Shown here: positions 2,355 through 34,881 of the stretch, piece by piece
Position numbering within the stretch: the stretch's first letter is position 1
Layout of the letters: the number at the start of each line of letters is the position of its first letter
Assembly (NCBI RefSeq): GCF_009177065.1
Contig: NZ_WEZF01000008.1
Span: 1 to 64,000, forward strand
DNA length: 64,000 bases
Direction of reading: 5' to 3'
Source of the DNA: Tautonia marina
GTDB taxonomy: Bacteria; Planctomycetota; Planctomycetia; Isosphaerales; Isosphaeraceae
Translations under genes and position numbers: made by a program
Notes under the pieces: model-generated
Database searches by the model: none
The model's input: the letters and a program-made list of their open reading frames with translations, nothing else
What the model was told of the DNA's origin: nothing

Positions 2355-2909
2355 ATGGCTTGCTCGACGCTCCGACCCCGGTTCGCTCCCCTCGCCCTCG
2401 TGCTTTCGCTGATGCTGCTCGGCCCGAGCCCCCTGAGCTTCGGTTCGACCCCCGACGAGGAGGAGGCCCCCACCAAACCCCGACGCCCCGACCTGACCGA
2501 CCCGGTCATCTGTCTCAACGTCCGAGGCTTCCGCGACTTCATCCCCCGCGACGAACCGATCCTCACCCCCGATCAGAAGCTCGAAGTCTACTACGAGCCC
2601 TTCAACTTTCTGATCCTTCGCGATGCCGACCGCGGCCGCTATCGGGCCCATCTCGTCGAGGATGTTCACATCCGCCGCGCAGGAAGCCCTCGACGCATCC
2701 AATCCCTCCCCGCCGCCATCGACTACTCCCCCCGATCCGAGGAGCCTCCCACCGCGCTCTATCTCCACACCACCATCTCGCTCAAGGACTTGCCCCCGGG
2801 CTCCTACGAGCTTGATCTGGTGCTCCGCGATCGCCTCGGCGACGGCCCCTCCGAAACCACCCACACCCTCTCCTTCCAGGTCGTCTCGTCTCTGCCCGTC
2901 GATCGCTGA
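2355..2909 (+). CDS. Small exported protein of unknown function
   Basis: The product is 184 residues long. The ATG at 2355 follows a purine-rich GGAAAGGGAAACGG region and starts a signal peptide (RPRFAPLALVLSLMLLG, cleavage near SFGST). An in-frame ATG at 2241 would bury this signal and is less likely. The mature part starts with acidic DEEEAP and then appears beta-rich, with PVICLNVRGFRDF, LEVYYEPFNFLIL and a C-terminal LPPGSYELDLVLRDRLGD stretch that looks like an immunoglobulin-like or ligand-binding beta fold (inference only). I do not recognise the family. It probably works in the periplasm or on the surface. Confidence 0.75.
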   Translation: MACSTLRPRFAPLALVLSLMLLGPSPLSFGSTPDEEEAPTKPRRPDLTDPVICLNVRGFRDFIPRDEPILTPDQKLEVYYEPFNFLILRDADRGRYRAHLVEDVHIRRAGSPRRIQSLPAAIDYSPRSEEPPTALYLHTTISLKDLPPGSYELDLVLRDRLGDGPSETTHTLSFQVVSSLPVDR

Positions 2910-3033
2910 CGCCCCGCTCCTCCCCTCCTTGGTCAGTTCCTCTGTCCCGATTCTCGGCAATTGCCTATGATCCGGCCTCGATCGGCGTCCACCTTCGTCG
3001 AGCGCCCCTCAAACCCGGTCCCCGCGCCGTCTG

Positions 3034-3213
3034 CTCCCTCTCCTCCGCCTGGAGAGGAGCCCGAGGCCGCAAGCCGGGCGATGAACTCCGACCTTCTCCG
3101 CACCCCCTCCTCCGCTCTCGGGAAACGAGCGTCTCCCAAGGCCGGGCGAGGCAAGCAGATTCAACCCTCTCCCCCGCCCTCGGGGGAGCGGGTGGCCGCA
3201 GGCCGGGTGAGGA
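3034..3213. repeat. Cluster of REP-like hairpin elements (family A), three copies
   Basis: Three copies of one palindromic unit follow each other at about 3034-3081, 3107-3151 (degenerate) and 3162-3213. The best copy has CCCTCTCCCCCG and CGGGGGAGCGGG arms, then TGGCCGCAGGCC and GGGTGAGG. The same unit recurs at 8783, 11462 and 17028. The rest of the 2910-3306 gap shows no gene. Confidence 0.85.
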
Positions 3214-3306
3214 AGGCCGACCCGCTCGACTCACCGCCAATCATCGATCGACTGACCCCCGGCCGTCGCTCGGCCGGATTCCGGCCAACGACGAGGGCCG
3301 CCCTTG

Positions 3307-4467
3307 ATGTCTCGAACCGTTGCCTGTGTGGTGGGAACCCGTCCCGAAGCCGTCAAGATGGCCCCCATCATCCTGAAGCTTCGTCAGGCCGGGGCCGAAA
3401 CCGGCCTCCGGGTTCGGGTCGTCTCGACCGGCCAGCACCGCGACCTGCTCGACCGCGCCCTGGCCGACTTTGCCCTGCACACCGACGACGACCTCGCCCT
3501 CATGCGCCCCGGTCAGGATCTCGTCGAACTAACCAGCCGATGCCTGCTGGCCCTCGGCCAGTGGCTCGACGAGCACCGCCCCGACCTCCTGATCGCCCAG
3601 GGAGACACCACCACCGTCTTCGCCTCGGCCCTGGCCTGCCACTACCGCCACGTCCCCTTCGTCCACGTCGAGGCCGGGCTCCGCTCCGGCTCCCTCGCCG
3701 AGCCGTTCCCCGAGGAAAGCAACCGCGTCCTCACCGCCCGCCTGGCCGACCTGCACTTCGCCCCCACCGCCGCCGCCTGCGCCAACCTGCTCCGCGAAGG
3801 AATTCCGGCCGACCGCATCCGGGTCGTCGGCAATACGGTCATCGACGCCCTTCGATGGATCGAGGCTCGCCCCGTCCCCTTACCCGTGGTGCCGAGTACC
3901 GATCGCCTGATCCTCATGACCGCCCACCGCCGCGAGAACCTCGGCCTGCCCCTCGTCCGAGCCTGCCGGGCCGTCGCCGAGCTGCTGCGCATCGACCCCA
4001 CGCTTTGCCTCGTCTTCCCCGTCCACCCCAACCCCGAGGTCCGCTCCGTCGTCTCCCGAGAACTCGGCGGCCTTGATCGCGTCCACCTGATCGAGCCGGT
4101 CGGCTCTCCGCAGTTCGTCGCTCTGATGAAAGCTGCCCGGCTGATCCTCAGCGATTCCGGAGGCGTGCAGGAGGAAGCCCCCGCGCTCGGTCGCCCCGTC
4201 CTCGTCCTCCGCGACCGCACCGAGCGCCCCGAGGCCGTCGAGCAAGGCTTCTGCCGGCTTGTCGGCACCGACCCCGACCGCATTCTTTCCGAGGCCCTCG
4301 CCTTACTCGCGCCGACCGCGTCTCCGTTGCCCGCCCGCTCCCCCTATGGCGACGGCTTCGCCGCCGATCGCATCGTCCGCACCCTCGCCGAACGCTTTCA
4401 CGTCCTCGACCTCGACCCCCACGCCCCCGCGCTCGATCCCAACGCCCTCGCTCCCCGAGCCGCCTGA
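3307..4467 (+). CDS. wecB: UDP-N-acetylglucosamine 2-epimerase (non-hydrolysing)
   Basis: The product is 386 residues, the usual length for this family. It interconverts UDP-GlcNAc and UDP-ManNAc, supplying ManNAc units for cell-surface polysaccharide in the cytoplasm (family knowledge). Signatures in order are GTRPEAVKMAPI at residues 9-20, GDTTTVFASALA, HVEAGLRSG, the EESNR segment, the AHRREN motif and SDSGGVQEE near residue 282, all typical of the GT-B-like epimerase fold and UDP site. The ATG at 3307 is preferred to the TTG three bases earlier; only a weak GAGG precedes it. No polysaccharide genes adjoin it; repeats flank it on both sides, so it is probably transcribed alone. Confidence 0.93.
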   Translation: MSRTVACVVGTRPEAVKMAPIILKLRQAGAETGLRVRVVSTGQHRDLLDRALADFALHTDDDLALMRPGQDLVELTSRCLLALGQWLDEHRPDLLIAQGDTTTVFASALACHYRHVPFVHVEAGLRSGSLAEPFPEESNRVLTARLADLHFAPTAAACANLLREGIPADRIRVVGNTVIDALRWIEARPVPLPVVPSTDRLILMTAHRRENLGLPLVRACRAVAELLRIDPTLCLVFPVHPNPEVRSVVSRELGGLDRVHLIEPVGSPQFVALMKAARLILSDSGGVQEEAPALGRPVLVLRDRTERPEAVEQGFCRLVGTDPDRILSEALALLAPTASPLPARSPYGDGFAADRIVRTLAERFHVLDLDPHAPALDPNALAPRAA

Positions 4468-4521
4468 ACCCTCCGCTCGCAGGACGATTGCAACGCCGTG
4501 TTGGTGGCCGTTTTTGCCAGG

Positions 4522-4709
4522 ATCGCTTCCACCCTCAAAGGATGCGTTCCCCCATTGCCCTGGGTGGCCCCGGTTGCTCGCCAACCGGGGCGGCACAGCC
4601 GCAAGAGGCTCCGGGAGGCCTCACTGAGACCGCTCGTCGCTCCGCGACCCCGGTTGACAAGCAACCGGGGCCACCCGGAGAAAACCCACTCTTTTGAAGT
4701 GGAAGCGAT
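4522..4709. repeat. MITE-like palindromic element, copy 1 (family B)
   Basis: This 188-bp element starts ATCGCTTCCAC and ends GTGGAAGCGAT, an exact 11-bp terminal inverted repeat that continues imperfectly inwards. Inside are two hairpins with CCCCGGTTG/CAACCGGGG stems, about 65 bases apart and embedded in GGGTGGCC...GGCCACCC. A second copy of 186 bp lies at 12622-12807. No coding frame is inside and I see no clear target-site duplication. The rest of the 4468-4863 gap holds nothing else that I can support. Confidence 0.8.
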
Positions 4710-4863
4710 ACTCCGCAAGCGACTTCGCAATCATCCTGCCTCGGCTCGCCTCGCTCATCACGTTCGTTGCTGTGGCGGCTCGGGTGGGGGCCCGCTATTC
4801 TGAAATGCTCGGATGACGTTCGAGCCGGTGTCGTCGATCAATCAAGTCCCCTGGTCTCTCCCG

Positions 4864-5901
4864 ATGCATGCCTTCGAGATGATCGGCTCCCGAGGACCGG
4901 GAGCCCTCAAGCCCATTTATGCCCTTTTTGGCGACGATCCGTTTCTGCGCCGCGAGGCCACGCACGCCATTGTTCGCGCTGCGATGGACACCGGCGAGGC
5001 GAACGACAACGCCGACCAGGCCGACGAGGACGAACTCGGCGTCTCCCGCGTCGCCGGCCCCCAGGCCGAACTGGCTCGGGTGCTCGACGAGGTCCGCACC
5101 CTGCCGTTTCTGGCCCCCCGGCGGGTCGTGATCGTCGAGGATGCCGACACCTTCGTCTCCGCCAACCGCAAGGAGCTGGAAGCCTTCGCCGCCCAGCCCA
5201 GCTCGACCGGCGTGCTTGTCCTCTCGGTCAAATCATGGCCGTCGAACACCAAGCTCGCCAAGCTCGTCGAGCAACACGGCACCTCGGTCGATTGCAAGGC
5301 CCCCCGCGAACGCGAGCTCCTCGGCTGGCTCGGCCGCCTCGCCTCCGACCGCTGGGGCGTTTCCCTGCCCGACGACGCCGCGCGGTTGATGATCGAACTC
5401 GTCGGCCCCGAACCGGGATTACTCGCCGTCGAGGTGGATAAACTGGTCGCGTACGTCGGCGATCGCCGATCCATTACCAGGGACGACGTCGGCCGAATGG
5501 TCGGCGCCGGCCGGACCCTCGAAGTTTGGGACATGATCGATCGGGCCACCCTCGGCGATGCCGCCGGTGCCCTCTCGGTCCTCGATCGCCTGCTGACCGC
5601 CGGCGAGGCCCCGCAGCGCCTGCTGGCCGCCCTGGCCACCTCGCTCCGCAAGGTCCACCACGCCGGCAAGCTCCGCCAGGCCCGTCGAGAGCTGGGCGAC
5701 GCCTGCCGAACCGCCGGCATCCCCCCCATGGCGATCGAGAAGACCGGCCGACAGCACGCTCACCTCGGCCCCTCCCGCGTCGATCGCCTGCCGGTCCTGC
5801 TCCTCGAAACCGATCTGGCCTTGAAAGGATCGTCCACGCTCAACGAGCGTGCCGTGCTCGAACGGCTCCTCCTCGGCCTGGCCCGCCCTCGACGCGATTG
5901 A
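4864..5901 (+). CDS. holA: DNA polymerase III delta subunit (clamp-loader)
   Basis: The product is 345 residues. It opens the beta clamp as part of the clamp-loader complex during replication (family knowledge). The N-terminal AAA-like domain has YALFGDDPFLRREA where the family has its (L)-G-E-(E)-x-L motif, followed by LPFLAPRRVVIVEDAD around residues 90-105 and a SVKSWPSNTKLAK stretch. The C-terminal half has the helical collar (LEVWDMIDRATLGDA, LLAALATSLRKVHHAG, TLNERAVLERLLLGL). I start it at MHAFEM because that matches family N-termini; an in-frame ATG at 4813 would add 17 unlikely residues. It stands between a MITE-like repeat and a small unknown gene. Confidence 0.88.
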   Translation: MHAFEMIGSRGPGALKPIYALFGDDPFLRREATHAIVRAAMDTGEANDNADQADEDELGVSRVAGPQAELARVLDEVRTLPFLAPRRVVIVEDADTFVSANRKELEAFAAQPSSTGVLVLSVKSWPSNTKLAKLVEQHGTSVDCKAPRERELLGWLGRLASDRWGVSLPDDAARLMIELVGPEPGLLAVEVDKLVAYVGDRRSITRDDVGRMVGAGRTLEVWDMIDRATLGDAAGALSVLDRLLTAGEAPQRLLAALATSLRKVHHAGKLRQARRELGDACRTAGIPPMAIEKTGRQHAHLGPSRVDRLPVLLLETDLALKGSSTLNERAVLERLLLGLARPRRD

Positions 5902-5963
5902 TCCGCCCCACCCCATCCGGTTCGATCCCCCGATCGATCCGCTCCGATCCGGAACTTCCTGAA

Positions 5964-6287
5964 ATGAATGCGCCGTCACATGAGGACTCAATTTCCCACT
6001 GCATCGCCAAGATCGTCGAGCTTGTCTCGCGAGAGACTCCCGACCGCCGGGATTTGCTGCAACTCGGCTACAATCTCGGCCGCCTCAGCGAGCTGACCGG
6101 CGCCGGCCGAGGCCCCTTCTGGGACGCCTGGAAAACCCCTGTCTCCGTCTGGGACCAGGCCATGCTTCAAACACTCGCTCACCAGTTACAAATCAACCCA
6201 GGTCCCCTGTCATCGGGCCATCCAGACATCCCCTCCCCATCAGAAGAATCCCGACATCCCTTCCAAGATTCCTGCCTGGACCCTTGA
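5964..6287 (+). CDS. Small hypothetical protein
   Basis: The product is 107 residues, starting 62 bases after holA on the same strand and perhaps co-transcribed. The first 80 residues look like a folded helical domain (ISHCIAKIVELVSRET, LLQLGYNLGRLSELTG, WDQAMLQTLAHQLQ); the last 25 are Pro/Ser rich and probably disordered. There is no signal peptide, so it should be cytoplasmic. I do not recognise the family. Codon use matches neighbouring genes, which supports coding. Confidence 0.6.
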   Translation: MNAPSHEDSISHCIAKIVELVSRETPDRRDLLQLGYNLGRLSELTGAGRGPFWDAWKTPVSVWDQAMLQTLAHQLQINPGPLSSGHPDIPSPSEESRHPFQDSCLDP

Positions 6288-6579
6288 GAATCCGGCAACC
6301 ATCCTGTTTACTATAACAAGCTCGTTGGACTGCCTGTGGTTGTGCAACCTTCCATGCATGAGCCACCTGCAATGGTGCGGGACCCCGCTCATGCAAGCCG
6401 ACCGTTGACCCCGGCACGGCAAAGCGACCCATGGAAGAATTCGCGATTTTTCTTGCAATCTGCCCGCTGACCACTCCACAATGGAGCCGCTCAGACCCAA
6501 GGGCAAACGTGACTCCCTCCTGGATCGCTGACCCATCGCGATCTCGACTCTCCGCATCAGATCTCAGGAGTGATGGACG
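6288..6579. other. Intergenic region, less GC-rich, with a small inverted repeat
   Basis: No convincing gene is present. GCATGAGC at 6356-6363 pairs with GCTCATGC at 6387-6394. A TATAAC hexamer at 6312 could be part of a promoter but has no good partner hexamer. Its last bases carry the AGGAG ribosome binding site of the BON gene. Confidence 0.35.
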
Positions 6580-9339: not shown

Positions 9340-11376
9340 ATGATCGTCAAGCTCGACGGTAGCAAGCGAGGACGAGGTCCAACCTCCAAAACCTCCTCGC
9401 GAGGGTTCACGACTCCGGCCTTCGATGCCGAAGACCTCGATCACGGACTGGCCGCCACCCGCCAGTGGCTGCTCGACCAGCAACGCGACGACGGCCACTG
9501 GGTCGGCGAACTCGAAGGGGACACCATCCTCGAATCCGAGTTCGTCCTCCTCCTGACCTCCCTTGGCCGCGAAGACGATCCGGTCGTCGCCAAGCTTTGC
9601 AATTACCTGCTTGAGCAGCGCCTGCCCGACGGCGGCTGGGCCATCTACCCCGGCGGCCCGTTCGACCTCAGCGCGTCGGTCAAAGCCTACTTCGCCCTGA
9701 AGCTCGTCGGGGTTGACCCCGATCATCCCGAGATGGTTCGCGTCCGCCAGCGCATTCTCGACGCCGGCGGGGCCCAGTCCAGCAACAGCTACACCCGCTT
9801 CTATCTCGCCCTGCTCGGCCAGATGTCGTACGACGACTGCCCGTACGTCCCCCCCGAGCTCATCTTCCTGCCCACCCACCTCGGACTCAGCATCTACGAC
9901 ATGTCGTCCTGGACCCGGACGATGGTCGTTCCCCTGGCGATCCTCTCCGTCCTCCGCCCCGTTCGCCACCTCCCCGCCGAGAAGGGGATCGCCGAGCTGT
10001 TCCGGCCCGACCTGCCTCCCCCCTCGCGTCGCACCGAGGAAACCTGGAGCTGGGCCAACGTCTTCGTCGCCTGCGACCGCCTGATGAAGTGGGCCCACCG
10101 CATCGTGCCGAAGGTCGTTCGGCGCCCCGGCCTCGCCGCCGCCCACCGCTGGATGGTCGAGCATTTCGACCGCTCCGAGGGGCTCGGCGCCATCTTCCCG
10201 GCGATGGTCTACTCCGTCTTCGCCCTCCGAGCCCTCGGCTACGCCGACGACCACCCGCTCGTCCGCCAGGCCTTGCAGCAGCTCGAAGACCTGATGATCG
10301 AGGAGCATGATTCGGTTCGGGTCCAGCCCTGCGTTTCTCCCACATGGGACTCGGCCATCGCCATGATCGCCCTGGCCGATTCCGGCCTGCCGGCCGACGA
10401 TCCCCGCATGGTCCAGGCCGCTCGCTGGCTGCTCGACCGTGAAATTCGGACCCCCGGCGACTGGCAGCGCCGCCGCCCCGGTCTCGAACCGACCGGCTGG
10501 GCCTTCGAGTACCGCAACGACTTCTACCCCGACATCGACGACACCGCCATGGTCCTGCTCGCCCTCGGCCGGACCTCCCTCACCCGGTTCCCCGAAGGCC
10601 AGGCCGTCACCGATCGCGCCGTCGCCTGGCTGCTGGCCATGCAGAACCGAGACGGCGGATGGGCGGCCTTCGATGTCGATATCGACAATCAATTACTCAC
10701 CAAGGTCCCCTTCGCCGACCACAACGCCATTCTCGACCCGAGCTGCGCCGACATCACCGCCCGGATTCTTGAGATCCTCGGCACCCTCGGCTACCGTGCC
10801 GATCACCCGGCCGTCGCCCGGGGGCTTGAGTACCTCTGGTCCACCCAGGAGCCCGAAGGCTGCTGGTACGGCCGCTGGGGGGTGAATTACATCTACGGCA
10901 CCTGGCAGGTCTTGCTCGGCCTTCAGGCGATCGACTTCCCGATGGATCACCCAAGCGTCCAGCGCGCGGCCGACTGGCTCGAATCGGTCCAGCAAGACGA
11001 CGGCGGCTGGGGCGAGTCGTGCCAGAGCTACGACGACCCCGCCTGGATGGGCAAGGGGGTCACCACCGCCTCTCAAACCGCCTGGGCCGTCAACGGCCTG
11101 ATCGCCGCCGGTCGCGCCCACAGCGCCAGCGTCCGCCGCGGCGTCTCCTTCCTGCTCCGAACCCAGAACCCCGACGGCACCTGGGACGAGCCGCAATTCA
11201 CCGGCACCGGCTTCCCGAAGGTCTTCTACCTTCGCTACCACCTTTACCGCATCTATTTCCCCCTGATGGCCCTGGCCCGCTACCGCTCGGCCCTCGCCGT
11301 CCCCGCCCCCTCCCGCCTCCATGCCGGCGCCCTCGCCTGCGGCATCCCCGCCGATCCCCGCCCGCTCGACATGTGA
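9340..11376 (+). CDS. shc: Squalene-hopene cyclase
   Basis: The product is 678 residues, normal for the family. It cyclises squalene to hopene/diplopterol at the membrane, the committed step to hopanoids (family knowledge). The catalytic DxDD motif is present as DIDD at residues 398-401. Several QW repeats are visible: QRLPDGGWAI, QNRDGGWAAFDVD, QDDGGWGESCQSY and QNPDGTWDE. AAGGAGG lies about 15 bases upstream of the ATG, and a plausible promoter sits upstream of that. Longer forms starting at 9199 (TTG) or 9292 would cover the promoter and lack family similarity. The next gene on the strand is a hopanoid-type nucleosidase, so both probably serve hopanoid synthesis, although repeats separate them. 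Confidence 0.95.
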   Translation: MIVKLDGSKRGRGPTSKTSSRGFTTPAFDAEDLDHGLAATRQWLLDQQRDDGHWVGELEGDTILESEFVLLLTSLGREDDPVVAKLCNYLLEQRLPDGGWAIYPGGPFDLSASVKAYFALKLVGVDPDHPEMVRVRQRILDAGGAQSSNSYTRFYLALLGQMSYDDCPYVPPELIFLPTHLGLSIYDMSSWTRTMVVPLAILSVLRPVRHLPAEKGIAELFRPDLPPPSRRTEETWSWANVFVACDRLMKWAHRIVPKVVRRPGLAAAHRWMVEHFDRSEGLGAIFPAMVYSVFALRALGYADDHPLVRQALQQLEDLMIEEHDSVRVQPCVSPTWDSAIAMIALADSGLPADDPRMVQAARWLLDREIRTPGDWQRRRPGLEPTGWAFEYRNDFYPDIDDTAMVLLALGRTSLTRFPEGQAVTDRAVAWLLAMQNRDGGWAAFDVDIDNQLLTKVPFADHNAILDPSCADITARILEILGTLGYRADHPAVARGLEYLWSTQEPEGCWYGRWGVNYIYGTWQVLLGLQAIDFPMDHPSVQRAADWLESVQQDDGGWGESCQSYDDPAWMGKGVTTASQTAWAVNGLIAAGRAHSASVRRGVSFLLRTQNPDGTWDEPQFTGTGFPKVFYLRYHLYRIYFPLMALARYRSALAVPAPSRLHAGALACGIPADPRPLDM

Positions 11377-11390
11377 CGCGATCGGCTCCC

Positions 11391-31004: not shown

Positions 31005-31048
31005 AACGATTCGATTCCACTCGCTTGTCAATTCGCTTCCTCAATGTC

Positions 31049-31090
31049 GGGGTTGGAGCAAGCCCTCTCCCTCTCTCTTGCTCCAACCCC
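31049..31090 (+). promoter_or_regulatory. Perfect 14-bp inverted repeat between DUF711 and peptidase genes
   Basis: GGGGTTGGAGCAAG pairs exactly with CTTGCTCCAACCCC around a pyrimidine-only 14-base loop. It ends 32 bases before the peptidase ATG. With no T-run behind it, it may be a terminator for the upstream gene, an mRNA leader hairpin or an operator. Confidence 0.6.
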
Positions 31091-31122
31091 GACGCGATCG
31101 CTCGATTCCGTCGAGGACTTCC

Positions 31123-34100
31123 ATGCGCATGATCATTCGATCGCTCGCCGTGATGCTGATTTCGGTGGTGCCTGCCGCCGCGGAAGACGACCTTCGCACC
31201 GTCGCCGAACGCAGCGCATTTCAGGCCACTGCCCGATACGACGAGGTCGTCGATCTGTGCCGGAAGCTCGACGCTCGGTCCGACTCCGTTCGGCTCGAAT
31301 CGTTGGGAACGACGGTCGAGGGGCGTTCCCTTCCGCTTCTGATCGTCAGTGATCCTCCGGTCGCATCGGCCGAGGACGCCCGAACCTCCGGCAAGCTCAT
31401 CGTGCTCGCCATCGGCGCGATCCACGGCGGCGAGGTTTGCGGCAAGGAAGCGCTTCTCATGCTCATCCGAGAGTTGACGGATGAGCCAGGTCACCCGCTG
31501 CTGAACGACCTGATCCTTTGCGTGGCCCCCGTGTTGAACGCCGATGGAGCCGAACGCTTCTCGACCGAGAACCGACGCGGCCAGAATGGACCGGCCGAGG
31601 GAACCGGAGTCCGAGGGAACGGGAATCGCCTCGACCTGAACCGTGATTTCATTGCTCTCACGGCGCCGGAAACTCAAGGGCTGGTCCGGTTCCTTGACGA
31701 ATGGGATCCTCATCTCTTCATCGATACGCACACGACCAATGGATCGGCTCATCGCTACCTGATCACCTACGACGGCCCGAAGAATCCAGCGACACACCCC
31801 GACGTTCTCTCCTTTTCCCGAGACGTCTTTCTGCCCGCGATTGCCGAATCGTTTCATAAGACGACCGGCGAACATGCGTTTTTCTATGGAAACTTCGAAC
31901 GCGACCATACCGAGTGGACGACCTATTCAGCAAATCCACGGTTCGGGACGACGTACGTAGGATTGCGTAATCGGCTTTCGATTCTTTCAGAGGCGTACGC
32001 CTATGCCTCATTCGAAGCTCGTGTGGCGGGAACGCTTGCGTTCGTCCGGTCGTCACTGGATCAAGCGGTCGAGCATCGTGAGGAGATTCAAACGCTCCTT
32101 GATCGTGCCCGCTCTGAGACGGATGACGGCTCGCCTCTCGACCTGCCCATTCGCTCCGAAGCCCAGGCATTCGACGAAAGGGTCACGATTCTCGGCTTCG
32201 AGGAATCGGGCGGGGCCAACCCTTCGGAGAGCTATGCCAGTGGGGTGCCCAAGGATTACGACGTGGCGCTGGTGGCTCGATTCGAGCCGACGAAAACCGT
32301 TCGCCGACCGTTTGCCTACGTAATTCCACCCGCATATGCCGAAGCGATCGCCACGCTCGATCGGCACGGCATCGCTCGTGAACAGGTTCGGGAAGACATC
32401 GAAGTTGAGGCCGAGGTCACGACCCTGGACACAGTCGATCGCAACGGAGACAGCTATTATGGTCCAGCGTCGATCGAAGCTGAGGTCTCAACACGAACCA
32501 CAACGCGCCGCATTTCGGCCGGTTCGATCCTTGTCCGCACGGCGCAGCCCCTCGGCACGTTGGCGAGCTATCTGCTGGAGCCGGGATCGGATGATAATCT
32601 TCTGACCTGGGGATTTTTTGGTGATTCCCTCGCGGCCGGAGACGAATTCCCGGTCCTCCGTCTGGTCAACGAGATTGGTCTGCTGACAACACCTCTTGCA
32701 CAGGAGAAGGAGGAACGCAAACCGATCACCTTTGACGTCCTGAACGGGAGCGACCGGCCAAACTTCAACGGATCACCGGCCTCGGTACGGTGGCTCGACG
32801 GTGAGCACTATCTCCAGTCGCGTGATGGACGGCTGATGAAGGTCGAGGCGGCCACCGGGAAGGCCGAGCCCTACCTTGACGCCGAGCCGATCGCAACAGC
32901 CCTGGCCACTCTCCCGACAATTGGCGACGAAGACGCACAGCGTCTCGCTCGGCAAGCCATCTCAGACTATTCCGCGAACGATCCAGGCGTTCTGATTTCG
33001 TTCGGTGATGACTTGTACTTTGCCACGATTGACGGGTCAAAGGCCAAACGCTTGACCAGTTCTCCGGGCGAGGAGGAGATGGCGGAGTTCAGCCCAGATG
33101 GTCGATTCGTTGCCTTTGTCCGTGACAACGATCTTCATGTCGTTGATCTGGAAACGGCCACCGAGCGTGCCCTGACCATCGGCGGCAGCGATCGGGTCCG
33201 GCACGGAAAAGCGGTCTGGGTCTATTTCGAAGAGTTGTTCAACCGAAGCTGGAAGGCGTTCTGGTGGAGCCCCGATGGTGAGCACATCGCCTTCCTTCGA
33301 CTCGATGATCGACCGCTTCAAATGCACACCGTCCTCGATGACACCGGGCCGAGGCGCACGGTGGAAGAGACCCCGTACCCTTTTGCGGGGGAGCCGAACC
33401 CGAGAGTCGCACTCGGCATTGTCGCGGCCCGGGGAGGGGAGCCGCGATTCACCGATCTTTCGCGATATCTCGAAGATTCCTTCCTCATCAGCCACGTCGG
33501 TTGGTTCCCCGACGGAAAAGCTGCCCTGGCGTATGTTCAGAACCGTACGCAAACCTGGCTTGATGTGCTTCGAGTTCCGACCTCGGGCGAGGCCCCGTCG
33601 CGACTGTTCCGGGATCAGACTGATGCCTGGATCACCAGCCCCGGCGATCCGATCGTCCTTCCCGACGACACCTTTCTCTGGCTCAGCGAACGAGACGGCT
33701 GGCAACATCTGTATCACTACGAACCTGATGGCACCTTGATCAAGCAGGTGACGATGGGCGAGTGGGAGGTGCGCACCGTCGAGCATGTCGACCTCGAAGC
33801 TCGGGTGGTGTTTGTGACCGGAACGATGGACAGCCACATCGCGGAAAACCTGTACCGGGTATCACTCGACGACCTCTGCGTGGATCGGCTCACGACGGAA
33901 CCGGGGCATCATTCGGTTCGGGTCGCTCCTGATGGGAAACACTTTGTCGATACGTGGTCGAGCACGACGGCGCCGGCCAGGGTCGCACTCCGATCGACGA
34001 CGGATGGCTCGCTCGTGCGGATGATCGACGAGAACCCGGTTCCGGATCTGGAGCGCTACCGCTTCGCGCCCCGCGAATTGGTGCAGATTGAGACCCCCGA

Positions 34101-34881
34101 CGGGTTCTTGCTCGAAGGAGAAGTAATCCTGCCTCCCGACCTGGACGAATCGAAGATGTACCCCGTTTGGTTCCAGACCTATGCCGGCCCGCACTATCCG
34201 ACAATCCAGGACTCATGGGCCGGTGGTCGAGCGCAGGATCAGGCGCTTGCGTCAGAAGGGTTCATCGTCTTTCGGGCCGACCCGAGGAGTGCCAGCGGCA
34301 AGGGGGCCGTCTCGGCCTGGACGGCGTACAAACGGCTTGGCATTCCCGAGTTGAAGGATATCGAAACGGCGATCGACTGGATCAAGGAACGCCCTTATGT
34401 CGATCCCAACCGGATCGGCATGACCGGGCACAGCTACGGCGGGTTCATGACGGCGTTTGCCCTGACCCATAGCGATCGGTTCACCGCGGGAATCGCCGGC
34501 GCACCGGTCACAGACTGGCGCAATTATGACACGATCTATACGGAGCGATATATGCTCACTCCTCAAGAGAATCGCGAGGGTTATGCCGAAACTTCGGTCG
34601 TCGAGGCGGCGAAGAACCTGAAGGGACGGCTCTTGATCGCTCACGGCGCGAAGGATGACAACGTGTCGGTGCGCAATGCGTATCAGCTCATCCACAACCT
34701 TCAGCAGGCGGCTCAGCCGTTCGAGTTGATGATCTATCCCGAGGCAAGACACGGGATCTACGGCGACCACTACGCGAACCTTCGCCTCGAATTCCTTCGG
34801 CGAACACTGGGAGGTGGTCCCAAAGATCGTTCGGCCCAGCCATCCCCCGCTCCTGGAGCCGAGGCAGGGGAGGGGAGGTAA
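31123..34881 (+). CDS. Exported M14 carboxypeptidase - S9 prolyl oligopeptidase fusion
   Basis: The product is 1252 residues with a signal peptide (IIRSLAVMLISVVPAAA). Residues 35-320 are an M14 zinc carboxypeptidase: zinc ligands His101 and Glu104 in HGGE and His203 in DTHTTN, VLNADGAE and LDLNRDF in the substrate pocket, and the general base Glu290 in LSILSEAY. A linker domain (330-560) is followed by a beta-propeller (FSPDGRFVAF, WSPDGEHIAF) and an S9 hydrolase with Ser1104 in GHSYGG, Asp1178 in KDDNV and His1210 in RHGIYG. Both active sites look intact. S9 removes dipeptides or cuts after proline; M14 trims C-termini (family knowledge). The fusion would let one exported protein degrade peptides from both ends (inference). 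Confidence 0.93.
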   Translation: MRMIIRSLAVMLISVVPAAAEDDLRTVAERSAFQATARYDEVVDLCRKLDARSDSVRLESLGTTVEGRSLPLLIVSDPPVASAEDARTSGKLIVLAIGAIHGGEVCGKEALLMLIRELTDEPGHPLLNDLILCVAPVLNADGAERFSTENRRGQNGPAEGTGVRGNGNRLDLNRDFIALTAPETQGLVRFLDEWDPHLFIDTHTTNGSAHRYLITYDGPKNPATHPDVLSFSRDVFLPAIAESFHKTTGEHAFFYGNFERDHTEWTTYSANPRFGTTYVGLRNRLSILSEAYAYASFEARVAGTLAFVRSSLDQAVEHREEIQTLLDRARSETDDGSPLDLPIRSEAQAFDERVTILGFEESGGANPSESYASGVPKDYDVALVARFEPTKTVRRPFAYVIPPAYAEAIATLDRHGIAREQVREDIEVEAEVTTLDTVDRNGDSYYGPASIEAEVSTRTTTRRISAGSILVRTAQPLGTLASYLLEPGSDDNLLTWGFFGDSLAAGDEFPVLRLVNEIGLLTTPLAQEKEERKPITFDVLNGSDRPNFNGSPASVRWLDGEHYLQSRDGRLMKVEAATGKAEPYLDAEPIATALATLPTIGDEDAQRLARQAISDYSANDPGVLISFGDDLYFATIDGSKAKRLTSSPGEEEMAEFSPDGRFVAFVRDNDLHVVDLETATERALTIGGSDRVRHGKAVWVYFEELFNRSWKAFWWSPDGEHIAFLRLDDRPLQMHTVLDDTGPRRTVEETPYPFAGEPNPRVALGIVAARGGEPRFTDLSRYLEDSFLISHVGWFPDGKAALAYVQNRTQTWLDVLRVPTSGEAPSRLFRDQTDAWITSPGDPIVLPDDTFLWLSERDGWQHLYHYEPDGTLIKQVTMGEWEVRTVEHVDLEARVVFVTGTMDSHIAENLYRVSLDDLCVDRLTTEPGHHSVRVAPDGKHFVDTWSSTTAPARVALRSTTDGSLVRMIDENPVPDLERYRFAPRELVQIETPDGFLLEGEVILPPDLDESKMYPVWFQTYAGPHYPTIQDSWAGGRAQDQALASEGFIVFRADPRSASGKGAVSAWTAYKRLGIPELKDIETAIDWIKERPYVDPNRIGMTGHSYGGFMTAFALTHSDRFTAGIAGAPVTDWRNYDTIYTERYMLTPQENREGYAETSVVEAAKNLKGRLLIAHGAKDDNVSVRNAYQLIHNLQQAAQPFELMIYPEARHGIYGDHYANLRLEFLRRTLGGGPKDRSAQPSPAPGAEAGEGR

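Follow-up and report, generated by a model that had tools for sequence, protein, structure and literature searches.

Does a single gene of the planctomycete Tautonia marina (Planctomycetia, Isosphaeraceae) encode both a zinc carboxypeptidase and a serine dipeptidyl-peptidase, and if so, do its two halves work together? The question arises from a stretch of 64,000 nucleotides (positions 1 to 64,000 of NZ_WEZF01000008.1, in the following the window), in which an earlier note, made from the letters alone, had read one gene as a fusion of an M14 carboxypeptidase and an S9 prolyl oligopeptidase. The gene lies on contig 8 of the 7.07-Mb genome and occupies positions 31123..34881 of the forward strand, where a single frame, opened by the ATG at 31123 and closed by a TAA whose last base is 34881, encodes 1252 amino acids (aa) with no internal stop codon.

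A domain search finds all three expected Pfam domains in this one chain, each above its cut-off: M14 at residues 45–185 (PF00246, E 6.1e-19, 69.2 bits against a curated cut-off of 21.6), DPPIV_N at residues 627–951 (PF00930, E 1.5e-76) and Peptidase_S9 at residues 1040–1224 (PF00326, E 2.1e-46). The putative signal peptide (residues 1–20, 31123..31182, +) was recognized by eye, with a likely cleavage site after the motif AAA. It is followed by the M14 catalytic domain (residues 22–323, 31186..32091, +), which carries H101, E104, H203 and E290; as the Pfam match ends at residue 185, the position of E290 was derived from conservation and from the module's fold. Behind the catalytic domain, structure models and alignment delimit the module's beta-rich accessory part (residues ~326–525, 32098..32697, +), which is also found in stand-alone M14 homologs. 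The remainder is a dipeptidyl peptidase 4 (DPP4)-type S9 module (residues 531–1225, 32713..34797, +), composed of a beta-propeller region with the glutamate pair E703–E704 (residues 627–951, 33001..33975, +) and an alpha/beta-hydrolase domain with S1104, D1178 and H1210 (residues 1040–1224, 34240..34794, +). No NCBIfam model reached its cut-off over the protein; Dpp5 (NF053518, 93.4 bits against 900) and the lasso-peptide isopeptidase (NF033523, 97.8 bits against 400) were rejected on these scores.

The predicted structure agrees with this layout. An AlphaFold2 model of residues 26–1225, based on an alignment of the window protein with 31 fused relatives, was obtained with a mean pLDDT of 89.6 and a pTM of 0.83, and a model of the M14 module alone (residues 22–540) with a pLDDT of 93.3 and a pTM of 0.93; the 69-row alignment of this module comprised the window and 68 of 70 M14 rows, L013 and L076, whose sites are broken, being omitted. 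From about model residue 507 (protein residue ~532) to its C-terminal end, the larger model aligns with DPP4. The match to bacterial DPP4 (5yp1: Z 39.1, 668 aligned residues, rmsd 2.9, 33% identity) covers the propeller and hydrolase folds across the entire S9 module, and that to human DPP4 is similar (5kby: Z 38.8, 659 aligned residues, rmsd 2.8, 25% identity). Likewise, the first ~302 residues of the M14 model match carboxypeptidase B (1zli: Z 28.3, 255 aligned residues, rmsd 2.8, 19% identity). The top Foldseek match of the M14 module is the bacterial M14 enzyme 4b6z (E 1.2e-14), and carboxypeptidase D ranks first in a profile search of solved structures (E 1.7e-11). The best profile matches are of the D/N/M-type, and the fold rows reach only to about residue 300 of the model, so that the accessory part is barely covered; in the M14B (carboxypeptidase N/E/D) enzymes, a C-terminal transthyretin-like domain lies behind the catalytic domain.

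The M14–S9 fusion is a recurrent planctomycete architecture. Three genomes of the same genus have full-length copies (86, 74 and 74% identity), and other single matches over the full span, from the phylum and class samples, are 38–56% identical. Among the matches listed, one match across both modules was found in at least 42 of the 198 genomes sampled from the class, a count that includes two rows ending at residues 1125 and 1088 (G734 and G739) and leaves out incomplete matches located at the ends of contigs (such as those in G706, G770, G818 and G751). Reading open reading frames adds five more of the 198 (L072, L073, L076, L077 and, in G740, L130). For the phylum, such matches were found in at least 12 of 392 sampled genomes, again among the matches listed, and many other genomes of this sample match with separate genes only, at identities of about 33–48%. 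In these surveys and in that of Verrucomicrobiota, two or three candidates were scored per genome, the best matches were listed, and the genomes are samples of larger groups. Verrucomicrobiota were rejected as a second home: the fusion occurs in one of 288 sampled genomes, which is the genome on which the survey was centred, and the verrucomicrobial copies L011 and L012 lie on metagenome-bin contigs of 14.6 and 9.5 kb, so that misbinning is possible. Other phyla were covered by one pattern scan of genome contigs, which is sensitive to close relatives. Spread on plasmids was likewise rejected, as none of the 305 plasmid records that match part of the protein covers 80% of it. The earlier note's impression that the fusion had not been described holds for the parts of the open-access PMC literature covered, where we found no account of the M14–S9 joining, of its spread through the phylum or of the loss of a partner, but the architecture is not unique to this genome.

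The closest relatives found for each half are encoded by separate genes, M14 in L088–L116 and S9 in L026–L029 and L117–L127. An adjacent S9 gene accompanies two of 34 separate M14 rows (L071 and L074) in the DNA fetched, whose flanks are of unequal length; in L069, the two genes are ~13 kb apart and on opposite strands. In L071 (genome G188), an M14 frame (813–2633) is followed by an S9 frame (2688–4847) in the order of the fusion, with stops between them and with a hydrophobic leader on each. L074 (2–6578, genome G629, sampled from Verrucomicrobiota) contains an M14 frame and two S9 frames, one of which is truncated where the stretch ends; here, the order is reversed relative to the fusion, and the S9 frame at 2569–4803 overlaps slightly with the M14 frame at 4764–6578. 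Because their S9 genes are only distantly related to the fused ones (31–35% identity), these pairings look independent, and they hint weakly at a shared task of the two enzymes. The neighborhood of the fusion was compared at 14 loci, some with short flanks. The preceding and following genes, which we take to be PFL-like and DUF1501-like, are conserved in same-genus loci only; operon partners were therefore rejected, and the neighbors gave no sign of peptide uptake. Between the preceding gene and the start of the fusion lies a strong hairpin of 17 pairs (31046–31093, +). The 96-nt stretch that contains it folds with −42.5 kcal/mol (z −6.2), and at the matching place in L050, bases have changed yet still pair; the hairpin was not seen in the predicted folds of L009 (Tautonia sociabilis) and L052. 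It may be a terminator of the preceding gene or an element of the 5′ leader.

Both active sites are complete, as judged by conservation together with the Pfam and fold matches, and the earlier note's numbering of the seven residues is correct. In a non-redundant set of 32 fused proteins, the one from the window counted, 31 members conserve H101, E104 and H203, and all 32 conserve E290, S1104, D1178, H1210 and E703–E704; Pfam finds DPPIV_N and S9 in 32 and M14 in 31. Larger counts, with the window excluded, comprise 36 fused and 34 separate rows for M14 and 37 fused and 30 separate rows for S9; some 20 loci that duplicated a genome region represented by another row, and matches of fewer than 380 query residues, were dropped before these counts and the trees. 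The S9 triad is intact in every row, fused (37/37) or separate (30/30), and the double glutamate in 37/37 and 29/30, respectively. By analogy with DPP4, E703–E704 presumably hold the amino end of the substrate, and W1132, Y1135 and Y1139 presumably form the proline pocket.

Furthermore, both modules are under purifying selection. Compared with the three same-genus copies by a simple Nei–Gojobori method (dS 0.57–1.75), dN/dS is 0.05–0.26 in every segment, including the junction: 0.10–0.13 in the M14 catalytic domain, 0.18–0.26 in the accessory part, 0.11–0.24 in residues 500–560 and 0.05–0.12 in the S9 module.

In sequence and model, one chain thus begins with a signal-like stretch and carries both an M14 and a DPP4-type S9 module, each of them intact. 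We think it probable that it is an exported bifunctional exopeptidase which works from both peptide ends, with the S9 activity as its constant and the M14 activity as its expendable part. The S9 half would cleave dipeptides off the amino end, preferably with proline or alanine in second position, while E703–E704 hold that end; the M14 half would trim the carboxyl end one residue at a time. In this way, peptides may be shortened from both sides, in the periplasm or outside the cell, the S9 step clearing prolines that stop ordinary exopeptidases, and peptide scavenging would be the likely role. Attack from both ends, which the earlier note had also proposed, is plausible. Its claim of an exported chain finds its one support in the N-terminal stretch, judged by eye, and we regard the protein as putatively exported.

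It may be that the protein is functionally a DPP4-type enzyme only, with an M14 module that, even when intact, is mainly structural or holds the substrate, although we consider this unlikely. The module's site is broken in two of 36 fused relatives versus none of the 34 stand-alone rows: L013 (M14 module 10001–11386) has R, D and R at positions 101, 104 and 203, and L076 (2390–3766) has D, R and A at positions 101, 203 and 290, the S9 triad being intact in both. Four loci of family f101 go further. In L128 (3194–5785), L129 (3763–6327), L131 (1765–4809) and L132 (2979–5921), what precedes S9 is a leader and the tail of the M14 module, starting at about residue 389–398; the M14-module profile matches solely in its last quarter, so that the end of the accessory part stays joined to an S9 enzyme from which the M14 catalytic domain is missing. 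A search of their four genomes at E 1e-8, which may miss more distant M14 enzymes, gave no hit with the M14 module of the window. A quick S9 tree, built after dropping another 15 rows (close relatives and long branches), places these loci nested among fused proteins, and the simplest reading is that they would have lost the catalytic M14 domain. Together with the S9 triad, which is kept in every fused row, the broken and deleted relatives indicate that M14 activity can be spared and that joint action is not always needed. A merely structural M14 module would, however, hardly be expected to retain H101 and H203 in 34 of 36 fused relatives and E290 in 35 of 36, nor, in the window, a catalytic domain under such purifying selection. 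In the bifunctional reading, the S9 activity is constant and the M14 activity useful yet losable.

The trees bear on how the two halves came together. Fused proteins do not form one clade in either the M14 or the S9 tree. In the M14 tree (71 rows), there are eight changes between fused and separate states, at least five of which are forced by starred branches; in the S9 tree (68 rows, quick method), there are three, at least two of them forced. In addition, the M14 module is a separate gene in two same-family genomes, G790 and G798, whose assemblies are 74 and 81% complete (L108 3640–5406 and L109 4893–6590), and both are nested among fused proteins. This pattern would fit repeated fusion or repeated splitting alike, and a single origin does not appear to be supported by the trees. 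A more far-reaching scenario is that M14 and a DPP4-type enzyme were fused on more than one occasion and that the M14 module afterwards repeatedly became non-catalytic, its role then being to grip or gate and so to present the ends of peptides to S9. The breakage of the site in two lineages and the loss of the catalytic domain with retention of the accessory part in others are the basis of this idea, which we regard as improbable.

Apart from whether the M14 half is active, its substrate could be a different one, such as cell-wall peptides, which would link it only loosely to the S9 activity. M14 enzymes acting on cell-wall peptides exist, and specificity is not confidently readable from the sequence. 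Yet the fold and profile matches are, among those listed, mostly carboxypeptidases of the A/B- and N/E/D-types, and the pair N173–R174, with which carboxypeptidase A binds the C-terminal carboxylate, is conserved in the fused proteins (N173 in 31 of 32, R174 in all 32); we find this option very unlikely. We give a similarly small chance to a polyprotein that is cut after export near residues 500–560 into two independent enzymes. Each module is found alone elsewhere, and residues 500–560 are identical to two same-genus copies at just 32 of 61 positions, compared with 547–553 of 701 in the S9 module; against this, 54 of the 61 are identical in the closest copy, and the mean pLDDT across these residues is ~71–92. 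Lastly, that a frameshift or misassembly joined two genes is ruled out for practical purposes, even if neighboring separate genes exist in L071 and L074, because the same uninterrupted frame recurs in same-genus full-length copies and widely across the class and phylum samples, some copies sitting on megabase contigs, and because dN/dS stays low across the junction.

Compared with known systems, the protein is not a new kind of enzyme but a new combination of two well-known families. It unites a metallo- and a serine catalytic type, expected to act at opposite peptide ends, in one chain across many planctomycetes, and as one partner occurs naturally within the family in intact, broken and deleted form, the benefit of coupling is directly testable; a one-chain tool for degrading proline-rich peptides is a possible application. 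Bacterial S9B DPP4 enzymes (Pseudoxanthomonas mexicana, 5yp1; Stenotrophomonas maltophilia, 2ecf) resemble the S9 module in fold, triad and double glutamate but, as solved, have no M14 module in front. Carboxypeptidases A, B and T and bacterial M14 enzymes (1zli, 4b6z) share the catalytic fold and the metal-binding residues, at 15–24% identity among the rows listed, whereas in the fusion the catalytic domain is followed by an accessory part and then by S9. The stand-alone planctomycete M14 and S9 homologs, unlike the fusion, are separate genes that are seldom adjacent. Finally, metallocarboxypeptidase D is likewise a multi-catalytic chain, one M14-like domain of which is reported as predicted to be inactive (PMC5683605), but its domains are all M14, whereas the fusion pairs M14 with an unrelated serine peptidase for the opposite end.
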